Below, in pieces: positions 30,919 to 42,958 of a DNA stretch of 64,000 bases. Positions within the stretch are counted from its first letter, which is position 1; each line of letters begins with the position of its first letter. Origin of the DNA: an uncultured Oscillospiraceae bacterium (GTDB lineage Bacteria; Bacillota; Clostridia; Oscillospirales; Oscillospiraceae); assembly GCA_949841355.1 (NCBI GenBank), contig CATKZP010000013.1:1-64000 (forward strand). The letters run 5' to 3'. Under the pieces are notes generated by a model. The model did no database searches. It saw nothing but the letters and a program-made list of their open reading frames with translations, and was not told the DNA's origin. The translations under genes and the position numbers were made by a program.

Positions 30919-30953
30919 AGGGCGGGGAGAACCACGGTTCTCCCCGCCCTTTT
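30919..30953 (+). terminator. Terminator after the 89-aa gene and its repeat
   Basis: GGGCGGGGAGAAC, short loop, GTTCTCCCCGCCC, TTTT. It reaches the stop codon of the convergent ATPase fragment. Confidence 0.8.
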
Positions 30954-31756
30954 ACTCGTCTTTCAGCGCCAGCACCTGGTCGGCCACCTGGTCCGCCATC
31001 CGGGCCACGCCGTCAAAGTCCACGTAGGGGTTATACAAGCCTTCCAGGCGGTCGTGCGCCTCCTTGGCCTGGCTCAGACCCGCCACCCCTTCGTCCAGCA
31101 GCGCCGCCGCCACCCGCTTTGTAAAGCGCAGCCGTGGGCGGTTGAGGCGGTATGCCTCCGTGTCCGCCATGGCGTCCAGCCGAAGCCGCCGGTAGGCGCG
31201 ATGAGGCCAAGGGTCCTCCTGGGTGGAGGTGACAAAGGCCAGGGACAGCCCCGGGAAAATGAGGTGGGCCAGCCGGTCGGGGGCCATGGGGTCCGGGCAG
31301 GCCACCGCGTCGTGGCCCGCGGCCAGGGCCGCGGTGAGGATAGGGGCGAGCATGTGGTGCGCCAGCCCGTAGCCGCCCGCCAGCTCATACACCCGGTCCG
31401 CCTGGGCAGACACCGTATCCCAAAGGGTAATCGCCCCCTTGTGGGTGACGGCGGACAAAAAGCGCTGCTCCGCCCGTCCCCCGCCCTGAGGCGGCCGCTT
31501 CAGCTCCCGGCTGATGATGCCCGCCGCCCGCTTTCCCAGCCGCTTACGCACCGGCTCGGTGTCCACCAGCTCGTTCATATCCCGGCGCAGCTCCCCCGCC
31601 GCCCCCAGGCAGCGGTACACCCGCTTGTAGTGGCCCTGGTACTCCGCTGCGGCGGCCAGGATATCCTGCTTCAGGGGTTGAAGCCCGGAGTGGTCGTAGT
31701 ACTGGCTCAGGTCTATGTAGCGCTCCACCACGCCGGGGCATTTGGGCTCAACTACG
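30952..31756 (-). pseudogene. 3' part of a P-loop ATPase gene (PRK06851-like), split by the element
   Basis: 268 codons up to the insertion junction. It begins at HVVEPKCPGVVERYIDLSQYYD and runs to the natural stop at 30952. The matching 5' part lies 10.9 kb away at 42688-42958. Joining them across the shared TGGG gives GCG CCC CAC GTA with the frame restored and a protein of about 359 residues, the length I expect for PRK06851-type ATPases. Read from the element side, an open frame continues to 32001, but that stretch is element DNA including a tRNA relic. The fragment has no start of its own. Confidence 0.85.
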
Positions 31757-31772
31757 TGGGAGGTGGTTACCA
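31751..31772. other. attL of the element
   Basis: ACTACG (host) TGGG (core, 31757-31760) AGGTGGTTACC (element). Combined with the right end, the element junction would read AACCCCCT-GGG-AGGTGGTT, whose arms are an inverted repeat at 7 of 8 positions, as expected for a serine-recombinase attP. Confidence 0.7.
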
Positions 31773-31823
31773 AAGGACACTTTGGGGGACAAGCTGTTTG
31801 AGATGACAGGCGTAACTGCTCAT

Positions 31824-31848
31824 AAAAAAGCGGCAGGCAAACTGCCGC
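31824..31848 (-). terminator. Terminator downstream of the tRNA-Leu relic
   Basis: Minus strand: GCGGCAG, loop TTTGC, CTGCCGC, then TTTTTT (31829-31824). It lies just behind the tRNA relic, as for a genuine tRNA gene. Confidence 0.8.
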
Positions 31849-31854
31849 CGAATC

Positions 31855-31924
31855 ACGTGCCGGACTCGAGCTGGGTACTGGGCCTTCGCAGTGGATTTTG
31901 AGTCCGCTGCGTCTACCGATTCCA
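31855..31924 (-). pseudogene. Truncated tRNA-Leu (CAA) relic
   Basis: Minus strand: TGGAATCGGTAGACGC (D-arm of leucine tRNAs), then GGA-CTCAAAA-TCC, an anticodon arm reading CAA, a variable arm, and CTCGAGTCC resembling the T-loop. The 5' acceptor and first D-arm bases are missing, replaced by AT-rich element DNA, and the T-stem does not pair well. It is therefore a remnant, probably an attachment-site identity segment of the neighbouring tyrosine integrase. Confidence 0.7.
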
Positions 31925-32024
31925 AATAAAGTACACAAAACAGAACACAGAATTTGCAAAGAAGTGCAGAGCAAAACCGCACTTCTTTTTATTATAAACA
32001 CAAAATGGAAAGGAATGGCTGTTT

Positions 32025-33140
32025 ATGGTTGCCGGTCACTTACAAGAGAAGAAGGGCTACTGGTACATAGTTTTGAATTTGTATAACGAGCAGGGGAAGC
32101 GAAAGACTAAATGGATTGCTACCCATCTGCCCATACAGGGCAACAAGCGTCGCGCGGAGGAACTGCTGCTCCAAACCCGGCAGCAGTACGCTGACAGCCG
32201 GGAAAGCAGCGGGCTGCTGTTTGCTGACTATATGCTTCAATGGCTGGAGAAGATGAAGCCGAAGGTATCACCCACCACCTACCATGGCTATAAGTATAAT
32301 ATTGAACGGGGAATCTGTCCTTACTTCCGTGAACGAGGCATTACGCTGGCCAAGCTGCGGCCCGCTGATTTGGAGCAGTACTATGCGCACCTCCAAACCC
32401 AGGGCCTTTCGGCCAATACCGTGATCCACTATCATGCCAACATCCATAAGGCGCTGCGGGATGCTGTGCGGCTGGATTTGGTGGATCGAAATGTCGCAGA
32501 ACTTGTGGAACGGCCAACTAAGGCGGAGTATATTCCAAGTTACTATTCTGTGAAAGAGGCGAACGAGCTGCTGGAAAAGCTCCGCGGGCATTGGCTATGG
32601 CTGCCGGTGTTGCTGTCTCTCTTTTATGGCCTGCGCCGGAGTGAGGTACTGGGGTTGCAGTGGAAAAGTGTGGACTTCGATAACGAAACCATTTTAATTC
32701 AGCATACCCGCATTCATCAGGAAATGGATGGGCGGGAGACAGCGGTAGGCCGGGATATCCTCAAGCGGAAGTCAAGCTGCCGCACACTCCCCATGACGGA
32801 TCAAATCAAGGCTGTGCTGCTGGCGGAGCAAGAGCGCCAGGGCAGTCTTAAACCACTGTTGCCGGAGGATTACGTATGTGTCAACCCGAACAACCAACCC
32901 ATTTCCCCAAACTACTACAGCCAGTGTTTTAAAAGGTTTCTGCGGGATCATGGGCTGCGGGAGGTGAGACTGCACGATTTACGTCATACCTGTGCCTTTC
33001 TGCTGATTCAGAATCGGACGCCGCTGATCGAGGTTCAGCAGTGGCTGGGGCACAGCACACTGGAAACGACGGCTGACCTGTACGCTCACCTGGAGTATGA
33101 AACGAAAATCAACAGCGCTGAGACGCTGAAAAAAATTTAG
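32025..33140 (+). CDS. Tyrosine recombinase (phage/ICE-type integrase)
   Basis: 371 residues. N-terminal AP2-like arm-binding domain (HLQEKKGYWYIVLNLYNEQG), SAM-like core-binding domain (about 65-160) and catalytic domain with YGLRRSEVLGL (Arg I), LHDLRHTCAFLL (His-x-x-Arg), QWLGHSTLETT and YAHL (Tyr nucleophile). All catalytic residues are present. ATG 32025 is used; another ATG at 32015 is in a different frame and begins MAVYG, the opening I would expect for this family, so a small insertion near the start is possible. It sits beside the tRNA-Leu relic. Confidence 0.88.
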   Translation: MVAGHLQEKKGYWYIVLNLYNEQGKRKTKWIATHLPIQGNKRRAEELLLQTRQQYADSRESSGLLFADYMLQWLEKMKPKVSPTTYHGYKYNIERGICPYFRERGITLAKLRPADLEQYYAHLQTQGLSANTVIHYHANIHKALRDAVRLDLVDRNVAELVERPTKAEYIPSYYSVKEANELLEKLRGHWLWLPVLLSLFYGLRRSEVLGLQWKSVDFDNETILIQHTRIHQEMDGRETAVGRDILKRKSSCRTLPMTDQIKAVLLAEQERQGSLKPLLPEDYVCVNPNNQPISPNYYSQCFKRFLRDHGLREVRLHDLRHTCAFLLIQNRTPLIEVQQWLGHSTLETTADLYAHLEYETKINSAETLKKI

Positions 33141-33200
33141 CCGCAGGATGCCTGCATCCCGGGCAATTCATTGCATCCCAACGCATTTAGTGTTCCTGAC

Positions 33201-33229
33201 TTGACAATCTTCATCCAATAAGCTATGGT
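33201..33229 (+). promoter_or_regulatory. Promoter of the RlaP-CCA unit
   Basis: TTGACA (33201-33206), 17-bp spacer, TATGGT (33224-33229), 35 bases before the TTG start. Confidence 0.55.
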
Positions 33230-33263
33230 TTAGAAATAAATCAAAAAATAGGAGGTGGCCGGA

Positions 33264-34265
33264 TTGAGCCTTCTCGATAGACCAGAATACAATTTTCTGC
33301 AAACCGACCCGCGCTTGGGAAAGAATATCATCTTCCTCACCTATGGCGGCAGCCACGCCTACGGCACCAACGTGGAGGGTTCCGACATTGATATCCGGGG
33401 CTGTAGCCTGAACAGTAAAGCCGATCTACTGGGCATGGGTAGCTTTGAGCAGGTGGTAGACGATCACACGGACACCACCGTGTATGCCTTCAATAAGCTG
33501 CTGGGTCTGCTCATCAACTGCAACCCCAACACCATTGAGCTGCTAGGCTGCAGGCCGGAGCACTATTTTGTGCTCACTCCCATTGGCCGGCAGCTTCTCG
33601 ACCGGCGCAAGATGTTCCTCTCCCGGCGGGCGGTCAACTCCTTCGGCGGCTATGCGGGGCAGCAGCTCCGGCGGCTGGAGAACGCCTTGGCCCACGATGC
33701 CTACCCCATCCAGGCCAAGGAACGGCACATCATGGGCTCCTGTGAGAACGCCATACTCTCTTTCCCGGAGCGCTACCGCACCTTTAGCCCGGCGCAGATC
33801 AGGCTGTCTGTGGGTGAGGCGGTCGGTAAACCCCAGGTGCTGGCGGACATCAATATGGAGCGGGTCCCCCTGCGGGAGTTCACCGGCATGATGGGCGAGC
33901 TGGTGGAGATCACCCGGAATTACGACAAAATCCATCACCGCAACAAAAAGAAAGATGACGCCCACCTGAACAAGCACGCCATGCACCTGGTGCGGCTATA
34001 CCTGATGTGCCTGGACATCCTGGAAAAGGAGGAGATCGTGACCTACCGGGAGGCGGATCACGGCCTGCTCATGGACATTAGGAACGGACGGTATCAGAAG
34101 GAGGATCATACCTTCAGTGCCGAGTTTTATGATCTGCTGAACGACCTGGAAAAGCGACTGGACTACGCCGCCAAGCATACCTCCCTCCCGGAAACGCCCG
34201 ACCTGGCCGTGATTGAGGCGTTTCAGATGGAAGTCAATGAAAGGGTGGTGCGCGGTGAAATTTGA
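33264..34265 (+). CDS. RlaP-like Pol-beta-superfamily nucleotidyltransferase
   Basis: 333 residues. The nucleotidyltransferase signature is GGSHAYGTNVEGSDIDIRG near residue 28: the GS plus paired Asp that bind metal-NTP. The protein resembles COG3541/RlaP, a family linked to RNA-ligase and RNA-repair operons. It starts at TTG 33264 with AGGAGGTGG 4-9 bases upstream; an in-frame GTG at 33255 overlaps the ribosome site. Its last 11 bases overlap the CCA-adding gene, so the two are coupled. Role in adding nucleotides to damaged RNA is inferred. Confidence 0.8.
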   Translation: MSLLDRPEYNFLQTDPRLGKNIIFLTYGGSHAYGTNVEGSDIDIRGCSLNSKADLLGMGSFEQVVDDHTDTTVYAFNKLLGLLINCNPNTIELLGCRPEHYFVLTPIGRQLLDRRKMFLSRRAVNSFGGYAGQQLRRLENALAHDAYPIQAKERHIMGSCENAILSFPERYRTFSPAQIRLSVGEAVGKPQVLADINMERVPLREFTGMMGELVEITRNYDKIHHRNKKKDDAHLNKHAMHLVRLYLMCLDILEKEEIVTYREADHGLLMDIRNGRYQKEDHTFSAEFYDLLNDLEKRLDYAAKHTSLPETPDLAVIEAFQMEVNERVVRGEI

Positions 34266-35592
34266 CATTCCTGCCGGGGCGCGGCATATCCTCCAGACGC
34301 TGGCCGCGGCGGGCCATGAAGCCTATCTGGTGGGCGGCTGTGTACGGGACCTGCTGCGGGGTGTGCCGCCCCACGACTGGGATATCTGCACCTCCGCTCT
34401 GCCGGAGGAGACGGAACGGTGCTTTGCGGACCGGCGGGTTATCGAGACCGGCCTGAAACACGGCACCGTCACGGTGGTGGAGGAAGGCGAACCTTACGAG
34501 ATCACCACCTACCGCACCGAGGGGCCCTATTCCGACAGCCGCCGCCCGGATTTTGTGTGTTTCGTGCCCAACCTGGAGGAGGATCTGGCCCGCCGGGATT
34601 TCACCATGAACGCCATCGCCATGGATCTGCAGGGAAATCTGCGCGACCCATATGGCAGCGCGGACGATATCAAATCCAGACTGATCCGTTGCGTGGGCGA
34701 ACCGGACCAACGATTCCAGGAGGACGGGCTACGGGTGATGCGGGCGCTGCGGTTCGCCGCCGTATTTGGCTATGAGATTGAAGAACGTACCGCTCGAGCT
34801 GTCCACGAAAACCGGGCCATGCTGGACCGGGTAGCGGCGGAGCGGATCAACACGGAGCTGTGCAAGCTGCTGGTGGGACAAAACGCCGGGGAGGTTTTGT
34901 GGCAGTACCCGGACGTGTTCTGCCAGTTCTGGCCGGAGCTGGGGCCACTGGTGACGCTGGAGCAAAACAACCCCTGGCACTGCTGGGGAGGCTGGGAGCA
35001 CACCATCCGCGCCCTGGAGGAGGCTCCCGCCGATGTGACCCTGCGGCTGGCCATGCTACTCCACGACATCGGGAAACCCGCCTGCAAATCCACCGATGAG
35101 AAGGGGATCGACCACTTCTACGGACATCCGGCGGTGAGCGCCCAGCTGGCGGACAAGATGCTCCGGGCGCTAAAATTCGACAATAAGACCCGGGAGCGGG
35201 TGGTGCTGCTGGTGGAGCGCCACGATGTACAGCTGCTGCCCAGGAGCCAGGTCATCCGCCGCTGGCTCAACCGGCTGAGTCCGGAGGCGTTCTTTCAGCT
35301 TCTTGACATCAAGCGGGCGGATAATATGGGGCAGGCCCCGGAAAAGGTACGAGACCGCCTGGCGGAGCTGGACGTGATTAGGGCCAAGGCGGAGCGGATT
35401 CTGGCAGAGCGCCAGTGCCTCACGTTAAAGGATCTGGCGGTGAATGGGCGGGATGTGATTGCTGCGGGTGTCGCGCCGGGCCCAGAGGTGGGGCAGGTGC
35501 TGGAGGGACTATTGGGGCAAGTACTCAGCGGAAGTATCCCAAATGAGAGAGAAGCCCTGATGAAATCAGTCGGCTGCCAGGTGCCTAATTAA
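34255..35592 (+). CDS. cca: CCA tRNA nucleotidyltransferase with HD domain
   Basis: 445 residues. Class II Pol-beta head: AYLVGGCVRDLLRGVPPHDW with D-W-D metal site, RRDFTMNAIAMD, and RFQEDGLRVMRALRFAAVFG. An HD phosphohydrolase part follows: LAMLLHDIGKP with later HDVQLLP. Enzymes of this kind add or repair the 3'-CCA of tRNA; the HD domain can remove 2',3'-cyclic phosphates. GTG 34255 is the start. It lies on the element next to an RlaP-like gene, and a separate housekeeping copy is likely elsewhere in the genome. Confidence 0.9.
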   Translation: MKFDIPAGARHILQTLAAAGHEAYLVGGCVRDLLRGVPPHDWDICTSALPEETERCFADRRVIETGLKHGTVTVVEEGEPYEITTYRTEGPYSDSRRPDFVCFVPNLEEDLARRDFTMNAIAMDLQGNLRDPYGSADDIKSRLIRCVGEPDQRFQEDGLRVMRALRFAAVFGYEIEERTARAVHENRAMLDRVAAERINTELCKLLVGQNAGEVLWQYPDVFCQFWPELGPLVTLEQNNPWHCWGGWEHTIRALEEAPADVTLRLAMLLHDIGKPACKSTDEKGIDHFYGHPAVSAQLADKMLRALKFDNKTRERVVLLVERHDVQLLPRSQVIRRWLNRLSPEAFFQLLDIKRADNMGQAPEKVRDRLAELDVIRAKAERILAERQCLTLKDLAVNGRDVIAAGVAPGPEVGQVLEGLLGQVLSGSIPNEREALMKSVGCQVPN

Positions 35593-35595
35593 CAT

Positions 35596-35637
35596 AACTG
35601 GGAGAAGCAGACGCTCGGGCGTCTGCTTCTCCCAGTT
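35596..35637. terminator. Bidirectional terminator between the two cargo units
   Basis: AACTGGGAGAAGCAGACGC, loop TCGG, GCGTCTGCTTCTCCCAGTT: a perfect 19-bp stem between convergent cca and the RT-nitrilase gene. Confidence 0.88.
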
Positions 35638-35660
35638 GTTCAGATCTTCTATATTATGTT

Positions 35661-38600
35661 TCAATCTTTGGTCAAATACTCCCATAGGGTGCCGTTCTGC
35701 TTGTATGCCGGGATATCCTTGTCAAAACGGGGCGGGGTTGCCTTAAAATGGAAATCATCCCGCTGGAGTTCATACTCCTTTCGCTGGTAAGTCCGCAAGG
35801 GACCCAGCTTAATATGATCCGTCAGGATCGTGTGGTTGCGCCCACCCTTTGTTTTGATCAGGTCGCGCTCCTCCGATTTCGCCGGCACCATGACCCGGCT
35901 GTCTCCGTAGTCGGAGGAATTGACCTGTATGCAGTAGCAGTGCAGATCCCGGCACAGCGACTCTACAATACTGCTGAAGTAGGGCACATCCCGATTCCAC
36001 TCCACCGCTACCGTCAGATCTGCAAGAGACTGGAACAGTGAGCGATCTGTGATGGAGGCCAGTTCGTAGCAGCAATAGACAGAAAACCATAGATCCCGCC
36101 AATAGAACAGCTCATATTGTTTTCCCTGGAATGGATTCATCCGATAGCCCCGGATCATCCGGGCCTCATTGGGGGAGTAATGTACCTTGTGGTGACATAC
36201 GACGTGGGCAAACTTGTAATCGTTTTCCCGATAGGGCAGGATGACTGCGGTCAAATTGTAAACCTTCCGGGGAGTGTCGTCATCAGGCGGGGCGGAGATA
36301 ACGTGCTCGATTCCCGTAACGAGTGCCATTTGGTTGTTGGCGCACAGCCTGGAAATGTCGGGCAGCCACTCCCAGGGGAGGAAATTTTCCGGCAAGACCA
36401 GCAAATCAGCTTTAGCCACAAGGGCTTCCTTCAGTAGCTTGGAAACCTGTTGATACCGTTTGTAGGAGCGGTTGGGCTTCTCGGTCAGGGCCCGCTCAAA
36501 ATCGGTCACATACAGCCGGGCATTGCCCACGGCGACTTTGATTTCGCCAGAGGCCGGGGAATTCACCCGGACAGCACAGCGGCCCTGCGCACCCCCCTTT
36601 TTGATGGGCTTTGCCTCTGCGGACAAAGGGAAGCCGCTGCTGCCGTCGTCCAGTCTTCCGTAGTTCCACAGGTTGTAAAGTTTGTTGATTTTGTCGATTT
36701 GGAGTGAGGGGTCGTCAAGTGGCTCTCCAGCGGCGATGCTCTTGCAGAGGAGTGCATACGAAATTTCATGGGGTGTCACCAGATAGGGGAAATAGTAGTA
36801 GAGTTCCTCCACCAGATCCCAGTCCACATGGGAGCGGAAGGCTTCCATATGGCACAGATTGACGGTTTCGTTTTCCTCGTCAAACACATCCTCGTCCAGC
36901 CACCCCACTGGAAGCGGCAAGACATATTTGTTCACCATGCGGCACTTGCAGTATGCCGCACGCTGTTCCTTCAGCTCGGTTTCTCGGAACAGAGGAAAAT
37001 CAGCGGCTTTTATTTGGGCTTCCGCTGCCTGAATCGCCGCAAGGGCTTTGTTCATATCCTTCCCCCAGCATAGCGCAGAAGTGCGACAAACGGCGGCGCG
37101 AAGCGTCAGGTACAGGCCATGGCGGTGCGCCGGGTCTTGGCTTTGGAGCGGTTCATCGGACACCTCATATGCGGCAATGGCCCCCAAGATGTTTTTTACC
37201 AGCTTTTCATAGTAATCCAAGCGGTCGTTTATGACCAGAATCTCCAGAAGTCTCTCCCATAGAGTGTAGTTTTCAATCAGCGCACGCCGGTTCAGGATTG
37301 TCAGCAGATCCCGGTCGAATGCGTTCTCTTGCTTATCGCGGATCAGGTTTCCGACCTTACGGTATTTCCCTAAAAATTTGGAAAGGGAAAATTTGTCCAG
37401 CGAAACGCTGGACACGCCCCGCAGCTTATGGGGTGTGTCGCTGTTGGACAGCTTGAATATTTCGCTGTAGTCGTTGTCACCCAAGGTGCGGTCTACATCT
37501 GGGAGATAGCGAAATTCACTGGCGTTGCGCCCGATTTCTGCACGGAAGCAGTCCAGCAGCGCCCGTGTGGAGCCCTCGCGGAAGTAGAAAATTTTGACCT
37601 TGTCGTTTTGAACCTGGATGTCTGAGCCAATGTCTTCACCGCCGTGCGGCCCAAGCAGAACCGGGTCAATGCGATAGACGTGGAAGGGGGCCGCCTGTGG
37701 GGTACCTTTCTGGGACTGAAGGGCTTCCTGCTGCTGCTTCTCCGCCCTCTCCTTCATTTCTTTCTGTTTTGGGGTCATTTCACCTTTTGGCACGTCTTGC
37801 AAGATACAAGTTTTAAGCGTCCTGCGCTGGCCATCCTGTTCAGATCCAGAACCAAAATAGTACTCAATGACATCGTTGGCCGTCAATTTGTCCTCGTTCG
37901 CTGAGGTGCCGCGGGCCCTTCCATGCAGGGGGCTGTTTTTCTCTACCTTGTCGACGATAATGATATCATCTACATACCTGCCGTAATAAACGGGGTTGAT
38001 GAGTTTGCTGATGGCCTCGTCAAAGGGCGTCAGGATCCAGTTCGAGAGGATGTATGAGGGAAGAAAACCAATGGACAAGAATGTCCGCCGACCCAACGCA
38101 AGCTCCTTATCCTGATTGAGCTGGCGGACTTTGTCGGAATAGACTTGGAGGACCTGGTAGACAAACGTGTGGACACGCTTTACCCAATCCGGATAATCCT
38201 CCACGGATTTCTGGAATTGCTGGTAAATATCAGAAAAATCCTCCTTGGAGATATGAACACTGTAGAAAAAGTTGCGGAAGTCAAGGGTAAGGATGAGCGC
38301 GTCCTGATTGCTGTTCAGCCGCTCCTTTGCATGGGTCAGTGCGGTGTCCCGCCAGCTCTCGTACTGGGAGAAATAGGGTTCAAACAGGTAGGGGGAGTAG
38401 GTAACCATCCCGCTGTCAGGATTGTAGAGATTTTTGCGCAGCCGGTTGCCGTAGGAGTGCTCGTACATCAGGGAGTGATCCGGGTCATCCCGGTCATCCA
38501 GACAGGAGCCGACAGTCAGTACCCAGAGCGCGCCGAGGATGTGCCCGGCGACCGGAAGGTCGATAAAATATTTTGCCGCTTCCATCCGAACCGGCTCGCT

Positions 38601-38888
38601 GTCAGCGTTAAAAATGATCTGCCCATCTGTACAGCCACAAAGCCGTTTTGGAAAAACAAACGTATCGATTTTTTCGAGAATATCCGCGGTGAAGTCTTCC
38701 CAGACATCGTCGCTCCCGTCCAGGGCATGGGCGATTTTGGATATATGCCCCTCCACGCCGCTGTTTTCAAAGGTCACCAGGTCATCCACCAGCGGAAGCT
38801 GTGTTTTGTCAAAGTACAGGTGGTTTTTCAGCTTTTTATAAGCTTTCTCAATCCATTCCCTGGTGAGGACGTTCATTTTCTTTTCCAT
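35661..38888 (-). CDS. drt1: Reverse transcriptase-nitrilase fusion (DRT type 1 / UG1-like defence protein)
   Basis: 1075 residues. The N-terminal half is a reverse transcriptase: LTLDFRNFFYSVH (motif A, Asp near 203), SIGFLPSYILSNW (motif B) and YYGRYVDDIIIV (motif C, YVDD at 305-308). The C-terminal part is a nitrilase domain with Glu in LVLPENFLPWEW (about 834), Lys in CHHKVHYSP (about 901) and Cys in YCCYELAS (about 940). This fusion defines defence-associated RT type 1 (UG1), shown by others to block phage. The start at 38888 overlaps recQ by 41 bases, with GGAGG 10 bases upstream; an ATG four codons later is possible. Confidence 0.9.
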   Translation of the reverse strand: MEKKMNVLTREWIEKAYKKLKNHLYFDKTQLPLVDDLVTFENSGVEGHISKIAHALDGSDDVWEDFTADILEKIDTFVFPKRLCGCTDGQIIFNADSEPVRMEAAKYFIDLPVAGHILGALWVLTVGSCLDDRDDPDHSLMYEHSYGNRLRKNLYNPDSGMVTYSPYLFEPYFSQYESWRDTALTHAKERLNSNQDALILTLDFRNFFYSVHISKEDFSDIYQQFQKSVEDYPDWVKRVHTFVYQVLQVYSDKVRQLNQDKELALGRRTFLSIGFLPSYILSNWILTPFDEAISKLINPVYYGRYVDDIIIVDKVEKNSPLHGRARGTSANEDKLTANDVIEYYFGSGSEQDGQRRTLKTCILQDVPKGEMTPKQKEMKERAEKQQQEALQSQKGTPQAAPFHVYRIDPVLLGPHGGEDIGSDIQVQNDKVKIFYFREGSTRALLDCFRAEIGRNASEFRYLPDVDRTLGDNDYSEIFKLSNSDTPHKLRGVSSVSLDKFSLSKFLGKYRKVGNLIRDKQENAFDRDLLTILNRRALIENYTLWERLLEILVINDRLDYYEKLVKNILGAIAAYEVSDEPLQSQDPAHRHGLYLTLRAAVCRTSALCWGKDMNKALAAIQAAEAQIKAADFPLFRETELKEQRAAYCKCRMVNKYVLPLPVGWLDEDVFDEENETVNLCHMEAFRSHVDWDLVEELYYYFPYLVTPHEISYALLCKSIAAGEPLDDPSLQIDKINKLYNLWNYGRLDDGSSGFPLSAEAKPIKKGGAQGRCAVRVNSPASGEIKVAVGNARLYVTDFERALTEKPNRSYKRYQQVSKLLKEALVAKADLLVLPENFLPWEWLPDISRLCANNQMALVTGIEHVISAPPDDDTPRKVYNLTAVILPYRENDYKFAHVVCHHKVHYSPNEARMIRGYRMNPFQGKQYELFYWRDLWFSVYCCYELASITDRSLFQSLADLTVAVEWNRDVPYFSSIVESLCRDLHCYCIQVNSSDYGDSRVMVPAKSEERDLIKTKGGRNHTILTDHIKLGPLRTYQRKEYELQRDDFHFKATPPRFDKDIPAYKQNGTLWEYLTKD

Positions 38889-40725
38889 GCGCCGTATGCC
38901 TCCAATCCCTGATCGTTTCTAAAAATGCCTTCCCGTACCGCTGGGCTTTAACAGCACCTACGCCGGCCACCTCCATAAATTCCTCCATGGTGCCGGGCTG
39001 CCGGACCGCCATATCTGCCAGCGATGCGTTGGAAAAAACCACATAGGCCGGGACTCCCGCCGCCGTGGCCAGCTTGGTACGCAGGGCGCGCAGGGCGGAC
39101 AGGAGTTCCGCATCCGCTGGAGCAAAAGCTGTGGGTCCGGCCTTGCCTCCGGGGGTTTCCTCGGCATCCTCCTTCCGTCGGATATAGACCACCCGCTTCC
39201 CCCGAAACAGCACCTGCTTTGCCTTGGGGGTGGTGCGCAGTACTGGGTAGTCCGCGCCATCCAGCAGAAGGTAGCCCTGCTCCAACAGACAGTCAATATA
39301 AGCCCGAATCTGCATCCGGTCCACGACCGCCATGATGCCATAGGTGGGCAGCTTGTCCAGCCCCAGCTGGAGCACCCGCTGATCCCGGCTCCCCCGGAGC
39401 ATCCGGACAATGGAAACAATCCCCAGGCCAGAGGGATACTGCCGCTCCACCCGGGTGACGGCGGAGAGAATTTTTTGTGCCTCCACTGTGATATCCCGCT
39501 GCTCCAGCTCTCCAGTGCAACTGCTGCATTTGCCGCAGTATTCTGGGGCGTCTTCACCGAAATAGCGCAGCAGGTACCCGCGTAGACAGCGGTTGGTTTT
39601 GCAGTAGGCAGTCATTTTGTCCAAACGCCGCAGGTCGCGCAGACGAATTTGCTCCCGCTCCTGTTCCGGCAGATTCTCGTTTTCGGAGCCGCTGTTGATG
39701 AGAAACTTCGCCGTTTGAACGTCGCCTTCTGAGAATAGCAGCGAACAGTGGGCATAGGCCCCGTCCCGTCCGGCACGACCCGCCTCCTGGTAGTAACTCT
39801 CCAGGTCCTTGGGCATATTGTAATGCACCACAAAGCCCACGTTGGATTTGTCAATGCCCATGCCAAAAGCGTTGGTGGCCACCATGATCCGAGCGCGGTC
39901 GTACACAAAATCCTCCTGGTTGTGCCTACGCTCCTCATCCGGCAGTCCCGCGTGGTATCGGGTGGCGGAGAAACCGTCCGCCATCAGCGCGGTGCACACG
40001 AACTCCACCGTTTTGCGGGTGGCGCAGTAGACGATGCCGCTCTGCCCCGGCCGCTGGCTGAGGAATCGCTTCAGATATGCCTCCTTACTTTTGGGCCGGA
40101 CCGTCTCAAAATAGAGGTTGGGCCTGTCGAAGCCGGTGGTGATACACAGCGGATCCTTCAGCAACAGGAGCCGCCGGATATCTTCCTTGACCTGATCGGT
40201 GGCAGTGGCGGTGAAAGCCCCCACGGTTGGGTGGCAGGGGAGCTGCTGCAAAAAATCCGCGATTTTCAAATAGCTGGGCCGGAAGTCCTGCCCCCACTGG
40301 GAGACGCAGTGGGCCTCGTCCACTGCCAGCAGAGAGACCTCCGCCTCTTGGGCAAAGCGGAGAAAGCCCGGCGTGGACAGTCGCTCCGGCGCAACATAAA
40401 TCAGCCTGTATGCTCCCTGTCTGGCCCTACGGAACACCTCATGATACTGTTCTTGGGACAGGGTGGAGTTGATAAAAGCCGCAGGGACCCCCGCCTGAGT
40501 CAGTGCGGTTACCTGGTCTTTCATCAGAGAGATGAGGGGGGACACCACCAGTGTCACCCCCGGCAGCAGCAGCGCAGGGATCTGATAGCACACCGATTTG
40601 CCGGCCCCGGTGGGCATGACCCCCAGCACATCCCGGCCACCAAGTAAAGCATCCACCAACTTCTCCTGTCCCGGACGAAATTCACTGTGACCAAAATATT
40701 GTTTTAATACCGTATATTTATCCAC
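38848..40725 (-). CDS. recQ: RecQ-family DNA helicase
   Basis: 625 residues. Walker A GVMPTGAGKSVCYQIP, DEAHCVSQWGQDFRP (DEAH box), TATATDQVKEDI, AFGMGIDKSNVGFVVHYNMP, QEAGRAGRDG, then a Zn-cysteine cluster (CRGYLLRYF, YCGKCSSC) and an HRDC domain at the C-terminus. It unwinds DNA 3'-5'. GTG 40725 is preferred over GTG 40737 because GGTGG lies 8 bases upstream and the protein then begins MDKYTVLKQYFG. Its stop lies 41 bases inside the DRT1 gene, so the pair is translationally coupled. Confidence 0.93.
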   Translation of the reverse strand: MDKYTVLKQYFGHSEFRPGQEKLVDALLGGRDVLGVMPTGAGKSVCYQIPALLLPGVTLVVSPLISLMKDQVTALTQAGVPAAFINSTLSQEQYHEVFRRARQGAYRLIYVAPERLSTPGFLRFAQEAEVSLLAVDEAHCVSQWGQDFRPSYLKIADFLQQLPCHPTVGAFTATATDQVKEDIRRLLLLKDPLCITTGFDRPNLYFETVRPKSKEAYLKRFLSQRPGQSGIVYCATRKTVEFVCTALMADGFSATRYHAGLPDEERRHNQEDFVYDRARIMVATNAFGMGIDKSNVGFVVHYNMPKDLESYYQEAGRAGRDGAYAHCSLLFSEGDVQTAKFLINSGSENENLPEQEREQIRLRDLRRLDKMTAYCKTNRCLRGYLLRYFGEDAPEYCGKCSSCTGELEQRDITVEAQKILSAVTRVERQYPSGLGIVSIVRMLRGSRDQRVLQLGLDKLPTYGIMAVVDRMQIRAYIDCLLEQGYLLLDGADYPVLRTTPKAKQVLFRGKRVVYIRRKEDAEETPGGKAGPTAFAPADAELLSALRALRTKLATAAGVPAYVVFSNASLADMAVRQPGTMEEFMEVAGVGAVKAQRYGKAFLETIRDWRHTAHGKENERPHQGMD

Positions 40726-40770
40726 AGGTAACACCACCCAAATCAGGCGACTTTTGCTGGAATTAAAGCT

Positions 40771-40799
40771 ATTGTAGCATATTGTATAGGCAGAAACAA
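40771..40799 (-). promoter_or_regulatory. Promoter of the recQ-DRT1 operon
   Basis: Minus strand: TTGTTT (40799-40794), 17-bp spacer, TACAAT (40776-40771). Confidence 0.55.
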
Positions 40800-40853
40800 G
40801 ACTGCGGTTATGTCCGGCATAGTATGCTCATAAAATTCTGTGGAGGCGATTTT

Positions 40854-40967
40854 ATGAAAGTCCAACCTTTAATTATCACTGAACATCATCCATCCCACGC
40901 CGCTCCGCTCAATCAAGCCATCCGTCAAACCATCACCGCCTGGCTCACAAAAGAACTCCACAAATGA
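40854..40967 (+). CDS. 37-aa small protein upstream of the serine recombinase
   Basis: 37 residues, MKVQPLIITEHHPSHAAPLN at the start and then a short helical stretch ending LTKELHK. TGGAGG is 7 bases before ATG 40854. Too short for a family call. Its stop is followed by a strong hairpin, so it may be a leader peptide or a small regulator of the recombinase. The surrounding stretch 40800-41075 holds only this ORF and that hairpin. Confidence 0.5.
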   Translation: MKVQPLIITEHHPSHAAPLNQAIRQTITAWLTKELHK

Positions 40968-40996
40968 TGCCTGCGCCGTTTTACCGGCGCAGGCAT
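40967..40996 (+). terminator. Hairpin between the 37-aa ORF and the serine recombinase
   Basis: ATGCCTGCGCCG, loop TTTTAC, CGGCGCAGGCAT, then TTCAAAT. A 12-bp stem without a clean T-run; could attenuate recombinase transcription. Confidence 0.6.
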
Positions 40997-41075
40997 TTCA
41001 AATAAATCCTTGCAGCCCGACTGCTCTTGCTGTATCATGATATTGAGCAGTTACGCCTTTGAGGAGGTGTAACAA

Positions 41076-42614
41076 ATTCTTTGCGCGATCTATACACGGC
41101 TGAGTAAGGAGGATGAAGACAAGCATCAGCCCGAGTCCGAGAGCATCCAAAACCAAAAATCCCTGCTGACCCACTACGCTATCGACCACGGTTGGGACAT
41201 CTACGCCATCTACTGTGACGAGGACTTCTCCGGTATCGACAGCGACCGCCCGGACTTCAACCGCATGATCGAGGCCGCCAAACAGAAAAAGTTTCAAATT
41301 GTCCTGTGCAAGTCCCAGTCCCGATTCACCCGGGACATGGAACTGGTGGAGAAGTACATCCACGGGCTGTTCCCCATCTGGGGCATCCGCTTCATCGCTG
41401 TGGCGGACAACGCCGACACAGAAGTGAAGGGCAACAAAAAGGCCCGGCAGATCAACGGTCTGGTAAACGAATGGTATCTGGAGGATTTGTCCGAGAACGT
41501 CCGCATGGTATTTGATTTGAAACGGCGGGAGGGCAAGTACATCGGCGGCTTCCCCATCTACGGCTATCAAAAGGACCCAGCGGATAAAAACCACATCATC
41601 CCCGATCCGGAGGCTGCCGAGGTGGTGCGCCAGATTTACCAATGGTCCCTGGAAGGCCATGGGCGGCAGAACATCGCCTATCTGCTCAACCAGCAGGGCG
41701 TGCCCAATCCCACCCGCTACAAGGCCGAGCGGGGCTGGACTTGTAACCACCCGATGAAAAACGACTTCGGCCTGTGGAACAAGGTGACGGTAGGACGCAT
41801 CCTCACCAACGAGATGTACACCGGGGTCATGATCCAGGGTCGCAGGAAAAAAGTGAGCTACAAGTCCAAGGTCATCATCGACACGCCGGAGGATCAGTGG
41901 TACCGGGTGGAAGGCACCCACGAGGCCATCATCGACCGGGCCACCTTCGATGCCATCCAGCGAGGGCTTCGCCTGCGCACCAAAACGGACGGATCGGGCG
42001 AAGCCCACCTGCTGTCTGGGCTGGTGAAGTGCGCCGACTGCGGTTCCACCATGAGCAAGTGCTCCAACGGCAAGCGAAGCTACCTCCGCTGCAAGCTGTA
42101 CGCCGACAGCGGCAAACAACGGCTGTGTACCCGCCACTCCGTCCGGCTGGATCAGCTCATCGATCTGGTGTCCGACCGTATTCGTTACTACGTCCAGACC
42201 TATTATGAGCTGAACCCCAACGATCTCCAGCCCCAGGAAGACACCCGGCAGAAAGCCTTGAAGCAGGAGCGAAAGACCCTCGCGGCTCAACTGGAAAAAC
42301 GAAGCCAGGCGCTGAAAACGCTGTATTTAGACAAGGTGGCAGGGATTATCAGCGAAGGCCAGTTTGTGGAGCTGAACCGATCCTTTCTGGACGAAAAAAG
42401 CCGCCTGGAACAGCGGCTGGCAAAAATCGAGGAAGAGCTTGAAAAACGGGAACAACCTCAGCAGCAAGCCGACTTGATGGAAAAGGCGCGGGAGTTGCTG
42501 AAGTTGGAAACCGTTCCTCGGGAACTGGTGGTAGGCTTGATTGAACGCATTGAAATCGGCGAACGAAATCCCAACACCGGCAAGCAAGAGGTCAAAATAA
42601 ACTGGAAGTTCTAA
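41076..42614 (+). CDS. Large serine recombinase with apparent AUU start
   Basis: 512 residues if started at ATT 41076. The catalytic serine lies in LCAIYTRLSKEDED, followed by QNQKSLLTHYAIDHGW, a recombinase domain (about 180-300), a zinc ribbon (VKCADCGSTMSKCS ... RLCTRH) and a C-terminal coiled coil. A TAA at 41070-41072 closes the frame upstream, and the first in-frame ATG (41265) would remove the catalytic serine. GAGGAGG lies 8 bases before ATT, so AUU initiation is the best reading. The gene ends 70 bp from attR and is the likely integrase of the element. Confidence 0.85.
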   Translation: MLCAIYTRLSKEDEDKHQPESESIQNQKSLLTHYAIDHGWDIYAIYCDEDFSGIDSDRPDFNRMIEAAKQKKFQIVLCKSQSRFTRDMELVEKYIHGLFPIWGIRFIAVADNADTEVKGNKKARQINGLVNEWYLEDLSENVRMVFDLKRREGKYIGGFPIYGYQKDPADKNHIIPDPEAAEVVRQIYQWSLEGHGRQNIAYLLNQQGVPNPTRYKAERGWTCNHPMKNDFGLWNKVTVGRILTNEMYTGVMIQGRRKKVSYKSKVIIDTPEDQWYRVEGTHEAIIDRATFDAIQRGLRLRTKTDGSGEAHLLSGLVKCADCGSTMSKCSNGKRSYLRCKLYADSGKQRLCTRHSVRLDQLIDLVSDRIRYYVQTYYELNPNDLQPQEDTRQKALKQERKTLAAQLEKRSQALKTLYLDKVAGIISEGQFVELNRSFLDEKSRLEQRLAKIEEELEKREQPQQQADLMEKARELLKLETVPRELVVGLIERIEIGERNPNTGKQEVKINWKF

Positions 42615-42672
42615 AATTAGGGCACCACGACCACGTCGTGGTGCCACCCACACAGCTCAAAATGTACTAACG

Positions 42673-42694
42673 GCACAACCCCCTGGGGCGCTGT
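42673..42694. other. attR of the element
   Basis: GCACAACCCCC (element) TGGG (core, 42684-42687) GCGCTG (host). See attL for the reconstructed attP and attB. Confidence 0.7.
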
Positions 42695-42958
42695 TCCGTC
42701 TACCAGTGCCGCTCCCAGCTGCGGCAAAATCAGCGCGTCCAACGACTCCGGATCGCCGGAGCACAGTACCTGCTGGGTCTCCAGCCCCGCAGCCTGAGCG
42801 TGGCGCTCCACCCGGCGCATGAGGGTGGACTTGCCGCTGCCCGGCCCGCCCTTGATGATGTATACCGCCCGCAGCCGCTCCGGATCGGACAGCTGATGGT
42901 AGAGGGAGTAAAAACCTGTGGGCGTATTGCCGCCCAGAAAATATCGAATGTTGGGCAT
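42688..42958 (-). pseudogene. 5' part of the P-loop ATPase gene (PRK06851-like), split by the element
   Basis: The first 90-91 residues, MPNIRYFLGGNTPTGFYSLY at the start, with Walker A VYIIKGGPGSGKSTLMRR near residue 33 and a SGDPESLDALILP segment. At the junction (GCG CCC then element DNA) the frame runs into CAGGGGG of the element and stops at 42617 after about 22 foreign codons. The rest of the gene is at 30952-31756. An AGGAGG ribosome site precedes ATG 42958, so a short truncated peptide may still be made. The intact protein would be a cytoplasmic ATPase of unknown role. Confidence 0.85.

Follow-up and report, generated by a model that had tools for sequence, protein, structure and literature searches.

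Why does a gene for a RecQ helicase overlap the gene of a reverse transcriptase (RT) fused to a nitrilase? The question is raised by contig CATKZP010000013.1 of an uncultured Oscillospiraceae, a gut bacterium, of which positions 1 to 64,000 were analyzed (hereafter, the window). On its minus strand, recQ runs into an RT-nitrilase gene of the UG5-nitrilase family, and the pair occupies a mobile-element slot whose cargo is exchangeable. The recQ-UG5 cassette is real, overlapping and co-mobile. It is a lineage-specific variant of the class 3 defense-associated reverse transcriptases (DRTs), and it is not DRT1. On balance, we lean towards the view that the two genes form an anti-phage cassette, translationally coupled and carried together as the cargo of an integrative element.

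The RT-nitrilase gene (35661-38888, minus strand) is an open reading frame (ORF) of 1075 residues. The PADLOC model RT_UG5-nitrilase spans residues 3-1058 of the product with 737 bits (7.7e-222) and beats the other RT models, the best of which outside UG5 are RTasNitrilase (99 bits) and Drt1a (58 bits, 1.2e-16). By this wide margin, the window protein is a UG5-nitrilase, that is, a class 3 UG/Abi RT and a cousin of DRT1. The label DRT1 (UG1) was dropped on the same scores. The RT active site YVDD (residues 305-308, 37965-37976) is identical in all six aligned proteins, whose identity is as low as 21%. The same six retain the catalytic residues Asp203 (motif A), Asp307 and Asp308 and, in the nitrilase region (residues 771-1075, 35661-36578), the triad formed by Glu834 (36387-36389), Lys901 (36186-36188) and Cys940 (36069-36071). 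The C-terminal part of the protein has both this triad and the nitrilase fold. Pfam CN_hydrolase scores 21.6 bits, slightly below its cut-off of 23.2. The nitrilase profile has a single match in the PDB, DRT1 (9yfd), which is not among the matches listed in the nitrilase-fold searches. The predicted fold of the full-length RT has a mean predicted local distance difference test score of 49. With both active sites intact, the RT-nitrilase is very probably a defence gene.

The recQ ORF (38848-40737, minus strand) encodes 629 residues if read from GTG 40737. GTG 40725 is probably the better start, because relatives in three genomes (G014, G017 and G027) have [M/V]DKY at this place. The product contains the DEAD, Helicase_C, RecQ_Zn_bind, RQC and HRDC domains and scores 718 bits with TIGR01389, whose curated cut-off is 640. 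GAGKS, DEAH, FTATA, QEAGRAGRDG and the zinc cysteines, which we take to be the functional motifs of RecQ, were all found. The best PDB match is 1oyw, presumably E. coli RecQ. By profile and motifs, this is a canonical RecQ. What distinguishes its gene is the setting. The usual recQ stands alone, whereas this one is mobile cargo overlapping an RT gene. Full-length recQ is also patchy in the genus, with matches in 6 of 37 genomes, which rules it out as a genus core gene.

The two genes share 41 bases (38848-38888), so that the RT gene starts inside recQ. A GGAGG (38903-38899, minus strand), which probably serves the RT gene as its ribosome-binding site, lies within recQ codons 10 nucleotides ahead of the RT ATG and supports this start. 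A sister species of the same genus (G014) carries both genes, with proteins 76-77% identical to those of the window. It has kept the same ribosome-binding site within recQ and the same first ATG, with an overlap of 44 bases. Comparison of the two species indicates purifying selection on the RT (nonsynonymous divergence, dN, 0.139; synonymous divergence, dS, 1.93, which is near saturation) and on RecQ (dN 0.155, dS 1.18). A chance overlap is disfavoured by the persistence of overlap and ribosome-binding site in the sister species. As far as sequence can tell, a single translationally coupled unit is supported. An earlier note on this DNA had described an RT-nitrilase with intact YVDD and Glu-Lys-Cys triad, starting 41 bases inside recQ and forming one translation unit with it. 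These points hold. The note had also proposed a DRT type 1 defence, of which the defence role stands as very probable, but the type does not.

The pair sits in an integrated element of about 10.9 kb (31768-42671) that interrupts a P-loop-motif gene. The edges are placed within about 23 bases, from an intact gene (L097) whose match to the window breaks off after 31767 and resumes at 42672. DNA similarity to three related elements of the genus (G1294, G036 and G1296) ends at 35518-35564 and restarts at 40840-40986. Because it breaks at both sides of the pair, the exchangeable cargo segment (35565-40839) holds exactly the RT gene and recQ. Around it, the element encodes, all on the plus strand, a tyrosine integrase (32025-33140), an RlaP-family nucleotidyltransferase (33255-34265), a CCA tRNA nucleotidyltransferase (34213-35592) and a large serine recombinase (41073-42614, an open frame of 513 codons). 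The interrupted gene, on the minus strand, is left with an N-terminal part bearing the P-loop motif (42617-42958; its Pfam AAA matches are all below cut-off) and a C-terminal part (30952-31767).

Six members of the genus, namely the window, G014, G1294, G036, G1296 and G002, have the CCA gene and this serine recombinase in the same P-loop gene. RlaP is present in five (it was not found in G002). The integrase also has a match in five, with none in the part of G036 covered, and the integrases of G014 and G1296 share only about 40% identity with that of the window. The far end of the G036 element lies outside the region covered, and the G002 element is split across two contigs. Within these regions, recQ and the RT gene are both present in two elements (the window and G014) and both unmatched in the other four, which rules out a place for recQ in the backbone of the element. 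The cargo of the four is an AriA-like ATPase in G1294, Wadjet II in G036 and, judging from gene lengths and the similarity of protein starts, also in G002, and Wadjet I in G1296. In this last case Wadjet lies in another slot, and the slot between CCA and recombinase holds no more than about 134 unmatched bases. A mobile element of Oscillospiraceae thus swaps whole defence modules. It resembles other defence-carrying integrative elements in its conserved recombinase and variable cargo, and differs from them in carrying CCA (6/6) and mostly RlaP, and in its insertion inside the P-loop gene. It is found in both orientations at one site, the window and G014 being opposite. The same recombinase occurs in six further genomes among the 42 of the genus searched, in stretches that are cut or differently arranged and were left uncounted; no RT or RecQ match was found within the stretches covered. 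Because sister elements carry Wadjet or an AriA-like ATPase in place of recQ and the RT gene, the cassette has good circumstantial backing as a defence unit, and an anti-phage role is probable.

How general is the association? We collected 16 UG5-nitrilase loci including the window, a small set biased to the kin of the window. Whole-genome RT searches, in overlapping samples, gave nine genomes with UG5; the G014 and Syntrophomonas loci came first from a separate search. Repeat records of E. coli and Sinorhizobium plasmids (H2, H4 and H5) were left out, as were two Leptospira loci (L035 and H7) whose RT half is not UG5-like. On the first of these, a Leptospira plasmid (L035, 1-4232), a DEDDh exonuclease gene starts 11 bases after the RT-nitrilase gene. 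A first viral scan returned no relative, and a phage collection no UG5 match. Of the 31 loci found in a second viral scan, with the A1 profile, L036-L039 were used; the other 27 matched short RT stretches only. A canonical recQ lies next to the RT gene at three of the 16 loci: the window, G014 and G496. Both same-genus loci thus have it. In G496, which belongs to another family, recQ ends 47 bases upstream of the UG5 RT gene, which places the adjacency in more than one lineage. A fourth locus, in Syntrophomonas, has a giant protein of 1604 residues with RecQ-type helicase and UvrD domains, whose gene starts 373 bases after the UG5 RT gene. Its N-terminus looks exonuclease-like by eye, but neither a PDB search nor an alignment to the exonuclease of Leptospira was significant, and we make no claim for it.

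The earlier note had taken RecQ for a dedicated, unusual partner, to be given up if recQ were absent from most DRT1 loci and dispensable for protection. Run on UG5, the first half of that check finds no RecQ match at 12 of 16 loci (one of them with no upstream flank), and an adjacent recQ in the nearest kin (2/2) and at one locus of another family. The pairing is indeed unusual; it is not a general one. At most, RecQ appears to be a lineage-specific partner of UG5-nitrilase. The RecQ-type label, given to the four loci with the giant included and with G342 counted as lacking it, needs two changes on the RT tree, which 15 of 500 shuffles matched. A limited literature search returned no paper joining RecQ with UG5 or with a defense-associated reverse transcriptase, though an earlier mention is possible.

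What could a helicase do here? The main text of PMC13275509, which mentions neither RecQ nor UG5, describes DRT1 as making template-free, protein-primed single-stranded DNA (ssDNA) adducts that drive a dormant filament. Immunity there requires the active sites of both RT and nitrilase and is consistent with abortive infection. All five T4 escapers had insertions or deletions in the gene of the helicase Dda. Activation requires this phage helicase, and the complete activation pathway is called elusive. Purified DRT5S and DRT5L, which we infer to correspond to UG5, also yield protein-linked DNA, and conservation of the DRT1 priming serine S402 does not extend to the other class 3 DRTs (PMC13275509). 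By analogy with this biochemistry, the UG5 RT of the window would make template-free, protein-primed ssDNA with its 5' end attached to the RT. The attached ssDNA would set the oligomeric state and hence the nitrilase activity, and nitrilase action would stop infected cells. More speculatively, RecQ may load at the adduct's free 3' end, or onto phage replication DNA acting as the trigger, and remodel the DNA it has bound. It could then be the host's own counterpart to the phage helicase required by DRT1. RecQ is a 3'-to-5' single-strand translocase, and the fit of this polarity to the free 3' end of the adduct is suggestive only. Since this UG5 system comes with its own helicase gene, and the near-empty slot of a sister element offers a natural control, the role of the helicase is directly testable.

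In a bolder version, RecQ is a switch built into a class 3 DRT. Acting at the adduct's free 3' end, it would either hold the nitrilase complex dormant or release it, so that infection would be sensed through a change in the access of RecQ to DNA. Together with the RecQ-UvrD giant of Syntrophomonas and the exonuclease of the Leptospira plasmid, it would make enzymes acting on DNA ends recurrent regulators of RT-nitrilases. We consider this version doubtful.

Several observations weigh against a two-gene defence cassette, and some of them favour another explanation. RecQ may be an ordinary repair helicase, captured by chance beside a self-sufficient UG5 RT-nitrilase. The overlap would then reflect tight packing, and defence would need the RT gene only. 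The window RecQ is indeed ordinary by profile, a canonical equivalog, and the sole full-length RecQ in its genome. No RecQ match was found at 12 of the 16 loci, so that recQ does not accompany most of them; among these twelve, the G342 contig begins inside the RT, one flank of the E. coli plasmid record is 102 bases long and the G854 contig ends 77 bases past the RT stretch. G854 shows no RecQ match in its 7.8 kb of upstream flank; its RT is the nearest relative of the G496 one, which has itself been disrupted by an insertion carrying a serine recombinase. In E. coli, 253 of 5426 genomes carry a near-identical UG5 (99% or more); in the three neighbourhoods viewed, there was no recQ, and UG5 lay beside AbiE genes near tRNA-Thr. 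Syntrophomonas has a separate RecQ elsewhere on the same contig, and its type of RecQ-UvrD giant occurs without UG5 in the stretches covered of G012 and G025. The RecQ tree adds to this. The window and G014 proteins are sisters (89/94, under the starred level), near the lone RecQs of G017 and G027, which are roughly as close as the paired ones. By path length, the window RecQ is slightly nearer to the lone G017 protein (0.36) than to the paired G014 one (0.41), and paired RecQs do not cluster, 98 of 500 shuffles being as low. Dda runs 5'-to-3', opposite to the polarity of RecQ. Finally, DRT1 protects E. coli without a partner, according to PMC13275509.

Against chance capture stand four observations. 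The cargo is exactly this pair, whereas in the regions covered the sister elements show no recQ and hold different defence systems. The ribosome-binding site and the overlap are retained at 76-77% protein identity. A second adjacency is found in another family (G496). And recQ, full-length in 6 of 37 genus genomes, is no fixed neighbour. Chance capture is an explanation that we regard as possible, although rather unlikely.

RecQ could also be a separate, modular defence helicase, a generic helper of several systems (BREX-like, type III restriction-modification and UG5) with no specific tie to the RT. In one stretch of G042 (L024, 9129-16420), recQ, whose product is 53% identical, shares bases with a helicase gene that has as neighbours a gene for a BrxD-like ATPase, which scores 163 bits, below the cut-off of 350, and another large gene. 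In G496, RecQ lies between an apparent type III restriction-modification system and UG5, in an apparent island with TIR and SIR2-like genes (all named by eye). The cargo of the window and G014, however, contains no other genes, and recQ overlaps the RT gene alone. We judge a generic helper improbable. Lastly, a true DRT1 with an unusual RecQ has almost nothing left of its probability: the domain order is the same and DRT1 is the one PDB match of the nitrilase profile, but the UG5-nitrilase model covers the whole protein with 737 bits, against 58 for Drt1a.

The favoured reading, a recQ-UG5 cassette, can be set beside the known systems. UG5-nitrilase, as listed among the DRTs by PADLOC, gives the full-length best match with intact RT and nitrilase motifs; the upstream overlapping recQ is what the window adds. 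DRT1 (UG1, 9yfd) is also an RT fused to a C-terminal nitrilase, and the helicase Dda belongs to the phage network that triggers it. It belongs to a separate family, and its occasional partner, found with about 18% of drt1 genes (PMC13275509), is the membrane protein drt1b and not RecQ.

Other neighbours of UG5 were noted in passing. Small ORFs that look membrane-spanning by eye lie just downstream of UG5 in viral contigs (L036, 4222-4911; L038, 10713-11162, on the opposite strand from UG5; L039, 11047-11562) and recall drt1b. UG5 also lies beside Hachiman-looking genes in G1130 (L091, 11281-14626) and Wadjet-looking genes in G732 (L073, 10178-16799), both read from sequence.

The RT and CCA genes converge, and a terminator-like hairpin with a 19-bp stem lies between them, past the stop codon of the RT (35596-35637, minus strand). 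Terminator-like sites number 13 in the region, against 5.7 expected by shuffling, and this hairpin has the longest stem, the next having 10 pairs. Rfam at gathering thresholds returned only tRNAs in the window.

Some features of the element itself deserve mention. In G016 (L176, 8404-11461), two copies of the recombinase face each other near CCA, in a stretch with no match to the interrupted gene. A small ORF (40854-40967) lies upstream of the window recombinase, and a similar one is present in the G014 and G1296 elements. The conserved N-terminus of the recombinase (41073-42614) has no ATG, GTG or TTG; the copies of G014, G1294 and G1296 look alike, which suggests an unusual start codon. The CCA gene (34213-35592) is the single CCA tRNA nucleotidyltransferase match of its own genome, and it is carried by a mobile element. 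A cell that lost the element might thus be left without a core tRNA gene; several relatives in the genus carry CCA on other contigs.

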